A stretch of DNA of 64,000 bases from Myrmaecium sp. VS I D KN 1. Its lineage: Eukaryota > Ascomycota > Dothideomycetes > Valsariales > Valsariaceae. The notes under the pieces are model-generated. The model was not told the origin of the DNA, searched no databases, and worked only from the letters and a program-made list of their open reading frames with translations. This document shows positions 40,593 through 43,899 of this stretch, piece by piece; the first letter of the stretch is position 1; each line of letters opens with the position of its first letter. Both the position numbers and the translations under genes were made by a program. The stretch lies in NCBI GenBank assembly GCA_019775845.1, contig JADQAV010000002.1, positions 310,001 to 374,000 on the forward strand. Reading direction: 5' to 3'.

Positions 40593-42007
40593 AATGGCCA
40601 CCCCGTCGTCTAATCCGGGCGATGCCCAAAATCCGATAATCTCTGGGTATCATACCATAATCCAGGAAAGCAAGAGCAAATCCGCTCTGCTGAGCGCATA
40701 ATCGCCGAACAAAGGCGCATAATCGGTGCCTCCGAAGGCTTAATCACAGCGGTCTATCGTACGATCGACGGTAAGTTCGCTCCGCTGTCTCACACGTGAA
40801 GGTCGAGGTTAGCATCGAGCTGACGAACTATAGCTCTAAATAATCCTTATCCGTCGGCTGCGCTACAGCCTACTAATCTCCTCCGGGACCAAGACGCGGA
40901 ATAGATGCAACTTGACACCGTTAATCCCATCGGGCAGGAGGCCTTGCATAATCTACAGGCGCAGCACGACGAGGCCATGCAAGCTCTTCGCACCGACAAA
41001 AATCGGCTGGAGACGCAACTGGCAGCGCGGGAGCGGAAGGTAGAAGAGCTCCGGAAGCAGGTCTCCGAGCTAAGAGATGAGGAGGACCGCCTCCGGCAAG
41101 AGATCAGAGATCTTACTAACCGCTCGCCATCCCCCCTGCCCATATTAGAGGACCCGCGCGTGGCCTGGTTTCAAGCCGAAGCCGAAACCCTCCGGAGTGA
41201 GCTGTGTGATGCTCAGCCCGAGCTCGCCAGGGCCCGGGACCCGCCGTTGCAAATCGTGGTCACGAATGATCCCCCGGAGCTCCGAGCCCTGATGCGGAGC
41301 TATGATCTCCTCTTCGAGGAAAATAAGCAGTCGCGGGAGCGGGCGAACGATCGATTCCGCCAACTGCAACGGCTGCAGAAGGAATACCATACCGAGCGGG
41401 AGTCTTTGCACGAGGAGCTCGCTCAAGCTAATAGCAACAACCATAATCGGTGCGAGCGCATCACCGAGCTCGAAGACAAACTTAATACCGCGCTGGCCTG
41501 CAACGTCGGCGCGCTACAAAGTCGCACGGAGGCGCTGGCCGAGGGGGACCGTCTGCGGACCGAGAACGGGCGGTTGACCGCCGAGTTGCAGAGAACGACG
41601 GCGGCGCTGGAGCACGCGAACCGGGAACGGGAAGCGTCGAAGCGGGCGTTCGCATCGATCTCCCGCCAAGTCGACCTGCAGCAGAAGGGAACCATGCAGG
41701 ACTTGGTCGCGCGAGGCTACGGAGAATTCGCGGAGCGTGTCCTCGGACGACGGAGGATTGAGTATCTCAATGCTCTGCCGTCGGACAATCGATTTGCTCC
41801 GCCGCCGAATAATCGATTTGCTCCGCCGCCGAATAATCCTGGCGCTCCGCCGTTGGATAATCCTGGCGCTCCGCCGTTAAATAACCCCAACGCTCCGCCG
41901 CCGAATAATCCTAATGCTCGGCCGCCGTCTAACTCCAATGCTCGTCGAATAATCCTGACGCTCCGCCGTTGGGTAATCCTGATGCTCTGCCGATGAACGA
42001 ATACTGA
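40593..42007 (+). pseudogene. Broken coiled-coil gene with Pro/Asn tandem repeats
   Basis: Unrecognised gene. A plausible start at 40593 (MATPSSNPGDAQNP) leads through a short exon, a clear 63-base intron (40771-40833, GTAAGT donor, CTGAC branch, TAG acceptor), and a long second exon. The longest intact frame, 40905-41996, encodes 363 residues. About 290 are charged heptads (for example LETQLAARERKVEELRKQ), indicating a long coiled coil; the rest is a tandem APPPNNPG repeat. The frame seems interrupted in about three places (early, just before 40905, and in the last repeats), so the gene is probably decaying, unless translation starts at 40905. Asn is mostly AAT, and the pentamer TAATC occurs about 20 times on the sense strand between 40611 and 42070, unlike neighbouring genes. 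No transposase or other enzyme motif is present. Function and origin are unknown. Confidence 0.6.
41772..42007 (+). repeat. 24-base coding minisatellite, about 10 units
   Basis: About ten direct units of the form GCTCCGCCG.. followed by AATAATCCT, encoding APPPNNPG-like octapeptides. Most units are 24 bases and one is four bases shorter, which changes the reading frame of the last two. The first units are the most diverged. Confidence 0.85.
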
Positions 42008-42232
42008 CGCCATTATCTAATCTGTGAGCATCAAAGAGGATAGGAGGGAGGGAGGTTAATCAGTTCTAATCATGTATTGGTTAAATACTGATGCTAAGCG
42101 CCCTCCAGGCATTACTTCTCGTACCTGCTATATAATACTCTTCTCATATATAATTTCTCCATCTGATGCTCGTATAATATGTGACCCGGTGCGCTTAACG
42201 GAAAAATACTTAAATAAGGATGAAAACGTGCT

Positions 42233-43899
42233 CTATATAATCCCCATCACTTCAAGCAGTAAAATGGGGAAGATGAGAGAGATATCCGACGCCAACGGAT
42301 ACAGCACCACCCTTGTCTCCCTCTCCCCCAACCGCACACACGGGCGGCCCGTATTCGTGCAAAAATCGCACGCCGTATGCGGCTCATGATAGCGGTAAGG
42401 GCGGGCGGAATGCGCGAGGTTGTAGTGGGCCGCGCAGCGCATGCCGGCATTGTTCAGGCGGCGGAAGCGGGACATGCCGAAGGCGCGCTGGGCGCGGACG
42501 ATGGTGTCGATGGCGGCGAGGAGGGCGAGGGCGGTGGGGCGGTTGGCCGCGATGAGCTCGCGGAAGGGTCGAGCTCGCCCGTCCCGGAAGATGTGCAGGT
42601 GGAGGAAGAAGATGGTGAGGGTGGGGATGAGGGTGAGGGAGGGGATGTGCTGCTCGATGAGCTGTTCGGCGGCTTGGTCGGAGATGGCGGCCGGTTCGTC
42701 GTCTGAGAGGTCGATTATAGTCTGGGGCGCCGGCGGTGGCCTCCGTTCCAACGGCGTCTCCGGGCGGCTGCGCGGTGGCGGATTAAGCGGTGGCGGATTA
42801 AGCGGTAGCGGATTAAGCTGTGGCGGAGAAGAGCCATGAGGAGTCCGGAAGGCGTTATTAGGAGGAGCAGGCGGGGAGAAGATCTGTCGGCCACCGTCCA
42901 GGACCACCGCTCCTCGTTCGAGGGGCCGATTAGTAGTTTGTCGATTATTACCGAGAGATCCGTAAGTCACCATCGGCGTGTTAAAACCAGGCTGAACAGC
43001 CGCAGGATTAAGTCCAGGCCGACGATTCCGCGTCGAAAAGCGATTATATCCCGGCTGCGACGCCGCGGAACGCGGTGAATTAAGCAACGGCAGCTGCGTA
43101 GGCGCCGTATTAAACATCTCAAGCCGACCCTGAGCGGCCAAGGGCGAAGAACCAGCCGGCAAGACCACGGGATTAAGCCTAGGAGACGCCATCGGATGAC
43201 GCGCCGGCCGAGACACCGGAGGATTAAACATCGGCCGGGAGGCCGGAGGATGAGGATCAGTATTAGACCCAGGAGACTCGGACCCAGAATGAAACGGACT
43301 GCCGATGGACCCGCCAACCCGCAACCGCTTCCCAGGCCGCCTATCCGTCCCCGGCGTCCTAGGTCGGGCGTGAAATCCCATCACAGACGACGTCCGCGAG
43401 GGGGATCGATTAGCATCCCGCATCCGATCCGATCCGCTGGCCGACATTAAGCCCGCTGGGCAGGCTGATGACGGCAGCTCATCTGCGCCCGCGATACTAC
43501 GCTGGATCCTAGCAGCGCCACGGCGGGCTCGGAGAGCGATGTACCGCTCGTGCAGAGCGTCGTGCTGCTCCTGCAGCGCGTCGTGGTGTGCGCGCAGGGT
43601 GTTGTAGCAGCCGTGGAGAGCGTCGTGCTGGGCTTGTAGGGTGTTGTGTTGTTCTTGGAGAGTATTGTGCTCAGCTTGCAGGGTGTTAACTCTGCGGTCA
43701 CGGCGGTGTCGTGCGCTTGCAGAGTATTGTAGGTGCGTTGTAAGGCATTATGAGCCTGTTGTGAGGCATTATAAGCTTCTTGTAGGACATCATTAGCCTC
43801 TTCCAAGGCATCATTAGCCTCTCGCAAGGCATTATTAGCCCCATGGTGGTCCATGAGATTAGGAAGAGCTTCGGCGTCGCGGAGCGCTTCGTCAGCCAT
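42233..43899 (-). pseudogene. Coiled-coil gene with Cys motif, frame-interrupted
   Basis: Unrecognised gene, convergent with the previous one. From the ATG at 43899 the product starts MADEALRDAEALPNL and enters about 20 heptads of the type NTLQAEH/DALQEQH. The heptad series switches frame once near 43,690, then stays open to 42233, so the gene is either slightly broken or carries a sequence error. After the coiled coil comes a 230-residue Pro/Asn/Arg-rich region with an LNPPP repeat, then QTIIDLSDDEP, which looks like a SUMO-interacting motif. A C-terminal domain of about 140 residues follows and holds CDFCTNTGRPC and VVLYPLA. Sense-strand TAATC is again frequent (about 12 copies). A 404-residue product could start at 43447. 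No known family is certain, and the function is unknown. Confidence 0.6.
42772..42826 (-). repeat. 15-base coding tandem repeat, 3.7 units
   Basis: On the plus strand the unit reads GCGGTGGCGGATTAA, repeated with one or two substitutions. On the coding strand it gives the LNPPP pentapeptide repeat of the Cys-motif gene. It parallels the Asn-Pro repeats of the convergent neighbour. Confidence 0.85.

Follow-up and report, generated by a model that had tools for sequence, protein, structure and literature searches.

The two genes considered here lie in a window of 64,000 nucleotides (C10:310001-374000), taken from the genome that was searched, which comprises 25,660,682 bases in 66 contigs. The window, whose positions are used below, is fungal, given the Fungal_trans and MFS genes in it, and probably comes from a filamentous ascomycete. 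The two genes of interest converge, gene 1 running from 40594 to 41996 on the plus strand and gene 2 from 43899 to 42233 on the minus strand, and the following features were distinguished:

40594-40904, plus strand: 5′ part of gene 1, with an ATG at 40594 opening a frame of 35 codons; eight TAATC
40905-41996, plus strand: main ORF of gene 1, 363 aa, a coiled coil followed by Asn/Pro repeats; nine TAATC
41771-41992, plus strand: 24-base tandem array of gene 1, encoding Asn/Pro; six TAATC
41997-42232, plus strand: flank on the 3′ side of gene 1; TAAT six times in sense (three of these being TAATC) and twice in antisense
42233-43447, minus strand: main ORF of gene 2, 404 aa with an Asn/Pro-rich middle; eleven TAATC in sense
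42338-42370, minus strand: CX2CX6C motif of gene 2, read from the sequence
42772-42827, minus strand: 15-base tandem array of gene 2, encoding PPLNP repeats; three TAATC
43447-43899, minus strand: 5′ ORF of gene 2, with an ATG at 43899 and a heptad coil; five TAATG and one TAATC

The heptad-like coding stretch of gene 1 is in a different frame from that opened by the ATG at 40594, a probable 63-base GT-AG intron occupies 40771-40833, and an in-frame TAG (40902-40904) directly precedes the ATG of the main ORF at 40905. Within the 24-base array, spacing falls by four bases near the 3′ end. Near 43700 the coil of gene 2 switches to the main ORF's frame and runs on in it; the open frame of that ORF extends upstream to give 504 aa. 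Both genes may be decaying, or may have a structure beyond what was resolved. The C-terminal part of gene 2 is predicted with low confidence to be helical (mean pLDDT of the predicted structure, 43), and its residues QTIIDLSDD (42698-42724, minus strand), which have one TAATC inside their codons, resemble a SUMO-interacting motif.

No relatives of these genes were found in a protein collection at E-values of 0.001, 10 and 0.01, two of the searches scoring the best 7998 and 8000 candidates, and viral contigs held none for gene 2. NCBIfam and Pfam gave nothing for the main ORF of gene 2 and, for gene 1, only matches under the curated cut-offs, and the single Rfam match fell below its gathering score. 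A search of the 25.7 Mb genome found no second copy of either gene, four weak matches to gene 1 (E 0.004 to 0.84) being taken as coiled-coil noise, and comparison of the two genes with each other gave no convincing alignment, the best covering 22 residues (E 0.074). A preliminary description of the locus had suggested that the pentamer TAATC might be a DNA-level mark of a gene family; with neither a second copy found nor a convincing alignment between the pair, this suggestion is not supported.

The same description had reported about 20 copies of TAATC on the plus strand alone between 40611 and 42070 and a reversal at 42.7-43.9 kb, with about 12 copies on the minus strand alone, in each case on the sense strand. 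Direct counting bears this out: the plus strand carries 20 copies at 40611-42071 and the minus strand none there, the minus strand carries 12 at 42713-43861 and the plus strand none there, and the bias tracks the sense strand of each gene. One extra plus-strand copy, at 42238, is antisense to gene 2. Over the whole window the total is not unusual (64 copies on both strands, 57.5 expected). Outside the island there are 31 in 60.7 kb, both strands summed, and the 1.5-kb windows beyond it, within the 64-kb window, hold at most three TAATC per strand and at most seven TAAT. In 500 dinucleotide shuffles of each gene, the 17 copies in gene 1 (40594-41996) compare with a mean of 1.6 and the 12 in gene 2 (42233-43899) with a mean of 1.4, the maximum being six in both cases; since nine copies sit in the two tandem arrays, not all of them are independent. 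The three copies said to lie beyond the end of gene 1 are present, at 42018, 42057 and 42067, as against 0.7 expected for this flank of 236 bases, and at least three were obtained in six of 500 shuffles.

For comparison we assembled 50 ordinary frames (stop to stop, at least 200 codons, 71.3 kb in total, which may take in some intron or non-coding sequence) from six 10-kb samples of the genome with 51-59% GC, from two other loci and from the remainder of the window. These contain 15 TAATC in sense and 16 in antisense, 24.6 being expected from shuffles, and 37 TAAT in sense against 67 expected, with 55 in antisense; the excess seen in the island is absent from these sampled frames. The observed/expected ratio of TAAT in these frames is the third lowest of the 256 tetramers. 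As a separate observation, the ordinary frames avoid TTAA, TTAG, TAAT, CTAG and CTAA on their sense strand more than codon usage would predict. A pattern of three spaced TAATC matched the genome 46 times, and 30 of the matches were examined as loci, five of which were the window itself. Among the other 25, 18 are below 40% GC, and in none of the remaining seven does TAATC exceed five copies on a strand over roughly 3 kb; one more locus had six and one copies on its strands. The reversed pattern is commoner than the TAATC triple (90/85 against 29/17), and there is accordingly no general enrichment of such triples. We rejected the idea that dense clusters of TAATC recur across the genome, the loci examined with this triple-spacing pattern (30 of the 46, plus one) being AT-rich or sparse apart from the window. 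The 18 AT-rich stretches have 24-36% GC and longest stop-free frames of 50-209 codons, and are perhaps RIP-degraded repeats. The TAATC/TAAT signal is real, strong and unusual relative to the sampled parts of the genome.

The core of this signal is TAAT rather than TAATC. TAAT occurs 23 times in sense and twice in antisense in gene 1, and 24 times and once in gene 2, a density of about 15 per kb in sense with near absence in antisense; when the 16 TA-initial tetramers were compared, the best sense counts after TAAT were only five (gene 1) and seven (gene 2). Synonymous shuffles that retain each gene's own codons place TAAT as the top tetramer and TAATC as the top pentamer in both genes, ranked by z among the words present, and the top hexamers are not the same in the two. 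C follows TAAT in 15 of 18 cases in gene 1 (65% in shuffles, p 0.079) and in 12 of 24 in gene 2 (33% in shuffles, p 0.061), a mild preference that is non-significant in either gene. CAAT is depleted relative to the same shuffles: it is the lowest tetramer in gene 2 (3 against 11.9), and in gene 1, where its count is 3 against 9.5, only TCAT ranks lower. TAAC is not enriched (three sense and four antisense in gene 1, three and one in gene 2). Hidden stops in a shifted frame were rejected as a cause, since they would lift TAAC, TAAG and TAAA too and none of these is raised in sense. The six sense TAAT of the gene 1 3′ flank were equalled or exceeded in 42 of 500 shuffles and are not significant alone.

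Codon usage alone does not account for these counts. AAT is favoured over AAC in the three ORFs of the island (46:17, against 200:490 in the 50 ordinary frames), which bears on the earlier proposal of foreign codon usage, but shuffles keeping each gene's usage fall short of the TAATC count, the 21 copies in the three ORFs comparing with a mean of 7.0 and a maximum of 14 in 2000 codon-preserving shuffles. Stricter controls used the pooled frame pieces of both genes. The 42 TAAT of this set compare with means of 22.5 in free shuffles, 31.2 in 40-codon blocks, 33.1 in 20-codon blocks and 30.4 with codon junctions preserved, and were reached in none of 1000, 1000, 1000 and 100 shuffles, respectively; such counts are not clean probabilities, since the island was picked for TAAT and TAATC, the frames were chosen by hand and the frame-changed ends were left out. 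With the arrays collapsed, 36 TAAT remain, against 19.2, 26.2, 28.2 and 25.8 in the same order, and again no shuffle reached the observed number. The pooled TAATC count of 27 was reached by no shuffle, and the 22 left after collapsing the arrays by three of 1000 20-codon-block shuffles. For single genes, the TAATC count of gene 1 was reached in seven of the 100 shuffles that preserve codon junctions (in ten once its array was collapsed) and that of gene 2 in 37 of 1000 20-codon-block shuffles (182 of 1000 with its array collapsed). The pooled excess therefore survives array collapse and the stricter shuffles, and the strictest single-gene tests are weak.

Codon phase and repeats bear on how the word could have accumulated. 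It had been argued that amino acid content could not explain TAATC because the word falls in more than one codon phase; both phases do occur, but the 20 copies of the two long ORFs comprise 17 in the phase NNT-AAT-C and three in NTA-ATC, so the argument is weaker than stated and the excess in these ORFs is largely a matter of choosing T-ending codons before AAT. The 5′ part of gene 1 has TAATC in both phases, in a stretch whose reading frame is uncertain. Tandem arrays of 24, 15 and 21 bases are present. Outside the two main arrays, the flanks of 14 gene 1 sites are no more alike than those of random positions (0.254 against 0.258), so copying fails to explain them, and the flanks of nine gene 2 sites resemble one another a little more than expected by chance (0.297, against a random mean of 0.265 and a 95% limit of 0.296), so some copying is possible there. 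Repeat copying was rejected as the sole cause on these grounds.

It is possible, if doubtful, that the word has no reader at all, and that the two genes are fast-evolving, Asn-rich, low-complexity orphans in which a shared codon-context habit (NNT before AAT) and repeat expansion have generated a functionless TAAT. A habit surrounding Asn codons could yield the pattern, given the predominance of one phase, and the preference for AAT, the arrays, the slight likeness of the gene 2 flanks and the partly broken appearance of the frames are all compatible with it, as is the finding that block shuffles absorb part of the excess and that it weakens in single genes. However, the pooled TAAT count exceeds every shuffle even with the arrays collapsed, TAAC and most other TA-initial words are not raised in sense, the same top word is found in two genes that have no detectable kinship, and three TAATC copies are found beyond the ORF, in the 3′ flank.

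Since the bias tracks the sense strand and reverses where the genes change direction, an RNA signal is to be expected rather than a site in duplex DNA, and a function at the RNA level is the best supported reading. The suggestion in the preliminary description of a motif in the RNA has fared best of its three, in view of the sense-strand bias, its reach into the gene 1 3′ flank and the fact that UAAU is a known fungal RNA-binding specificity for which this genome encodes a protein; taken together, its interpretation is partly supported. UAAU is the site of the fungal Puf1/Puf2 class (PMC8304900; PMC5465220; PMC4654594), whose PUM domain binds it and whose RRM-like fold dimerises, Puf1 being described as favouring dual UAAU with a spacer of 3-4 nt (PMC8304900). 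Puf sites are given there as typically located in 3′ UTRs (PMC8304900), and ZEO1 mRNA, which is bound by Puf1/Puf2, is reported to have multiple UAAU in its 3′ UTR (PMC5465220). According to work on Fusarium oxysporum f. sp. niveum, its sole RRM-bearing PUF protein, FonPUF1, recognises the PMP1 and PMP2 motifs of yeast in vitro and also binds an A-rich motif (PMC10128047).

A candidate reader of this kind is present in the genome. A gene near position 1,147,900 of C10, the contig that also holds the window, matches both RRM_1 and PUF domains. The best solved match to its PUF domain is that of S. pombe C56F2.08c (6ny5; E 1.5e-115, 189/370 residues or 51% identical), and there is a match between its RRM and that of C56F2.08c as well (6nww; E 5e-10). 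Judged by these similarities, at least one predicted member of the Puf1/Puf2 (Jsn1) class is encoded in the genome. At C26 and C64:815 kb, two other PUF loci, no RRM was found in the parts scanned, and further PUF places were noted at C64:1050 kb and C10:1672 kb.

We tentatively propose that the UAAU arrays are Puf1-type binding sites controlling both mRNAs, a reading to which we give well under an even chance. What is observed is that TAAT exceeds, on one strand, what codon usage gives, that the sampled ordinary frames lack this excess and that the candidate reader is encoded in the genome; selection for the word, its binding by Puf1 and an effect on expression are what we infer. The transcripts of the two orphan genes would be studded with UAAU, the word being kept at the RNA level, and its likely reader would be the RRM + PUF protein encoded on C10, the best candidate at a similarly tentative level. 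Several Puf1 molecules on one mRNA may make it less stable or less translated, or direct its localisation, and binding would keep both genes under common post-transcriptional control. The resemblance to Puf1/Puf2 targets lies in the several sense UAAU (23 and 24) and in the RRM + PUF protein; the differences are that most sites are coding, that each transcript region carries over 20 copies and that the dual spacing is missing, none of 45 neighbouring TAAT pairs having a spacer of 3-4 nt and 34 of the 45 spacers measuring 11-59 nt. Gene 2 has UAAUAAU overlaps at two places, and gene 1 has two pairs with spacers of 0-10. Fold predictions make TAAT sites no more accessible than other tetramers of A and T. 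The spacing, the coding location and the lack of extra openness lead us to liken these transcripts to Puf1 targets rather than to class them as such, and the predominance of one codon phase also counts against the Puf1 reading, as do the weak single-gene tests, the slight likeness of the gene 2 flanks and the binding of an A-rich motif by FonPUF1. Pmp3 genes are, by analogy with yeast, possible conserved Puf targets; after the Pmp3 genes of this genome, TAAT occurs four times in sense and once in antisense (one pair being 5 nt apart) in one case and zero and three times in the other, which is uninformative.

It is unlikely, though conceivable, that some other RNA-binding protein reads UAAU or UAAUC, of the Cyp33-type RRM, STAR/KH or YTH kinds, leading to DSR-like decay or to a decoy function. 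The slight preference for C after UAAU would be in keeping with another reader. STAR/KH (Quaking) proteins recognise UAAY sites, of which UAAU is one form; UAAC is not raised in sense, unlike what a UAAY element calls for, and the STAR element was rejected. The Cyp33-type RRM consensus is given as YAAUNY (PMC10115415), which is at odds with the depletion of CAAU, and this element was rejected as well. A short word repeated in sense over the transcript recalls the DSR/meiRNA elements of S. pombe that are described for Mmi1 (PMC4077057), and the genome has a YTH match with two internal stops that are maybe introns; however, the DSR word UNAAAC is absent from the sense strand of both genes, and the Mmi1 element was set aside.

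An improbable account is that foreign origin or RIP-type mutation placed the TAAT copies. The lack of second copies and of detected relatives would fit it, as would the existence of AT-rich stretches elsewhere in the genome and the somewhat higher TpA/ApT of the island, but the island has 52-61% GC per kb, inside the range of the window, and the other TA words are not raised alike. RIP was rejected as a cause, the indices being little changed between the island and the rest of the window (TpA/ApT 0.70 against 0.57; second index 1.18 against 1.19). DNA-level sites, for instance for a homeodomain protein, are very improbable, since, although TAAT is the homeodomain core, a binder of duplex DNA reads both strands and the counts here (23:2 and 24:1) flip with gene direction.

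Returning to Puf1-type control, it is a more doubtful extension of this proposal, though still a possible one, that the coding sequences of both genes are filled with UAAU such that each mRNA serves Puf1 as a high-capacity target or sponge, bending the choice of codons and amino acids. The known Puf1/Puf2 sites, as far as the sources cited describe them, are dual or multiple UAAU, usually in 3′ UTRs, and here the sites are mainly coding; no report of UAAU arrays in coding sequences was found in the accessible portions of the literature on UAAU and fungal Puf1/Puf2. If the proposal is correct, transcripts with more than 20 UAAU each, mainly in coding sequence, would be natural multivalent Puf1 substrates, RNA-binding sites would be able to shape codon and amino-acid choice, and these genes would provide a handle on the role of the RRM-PUF protein in filamentous fungi.
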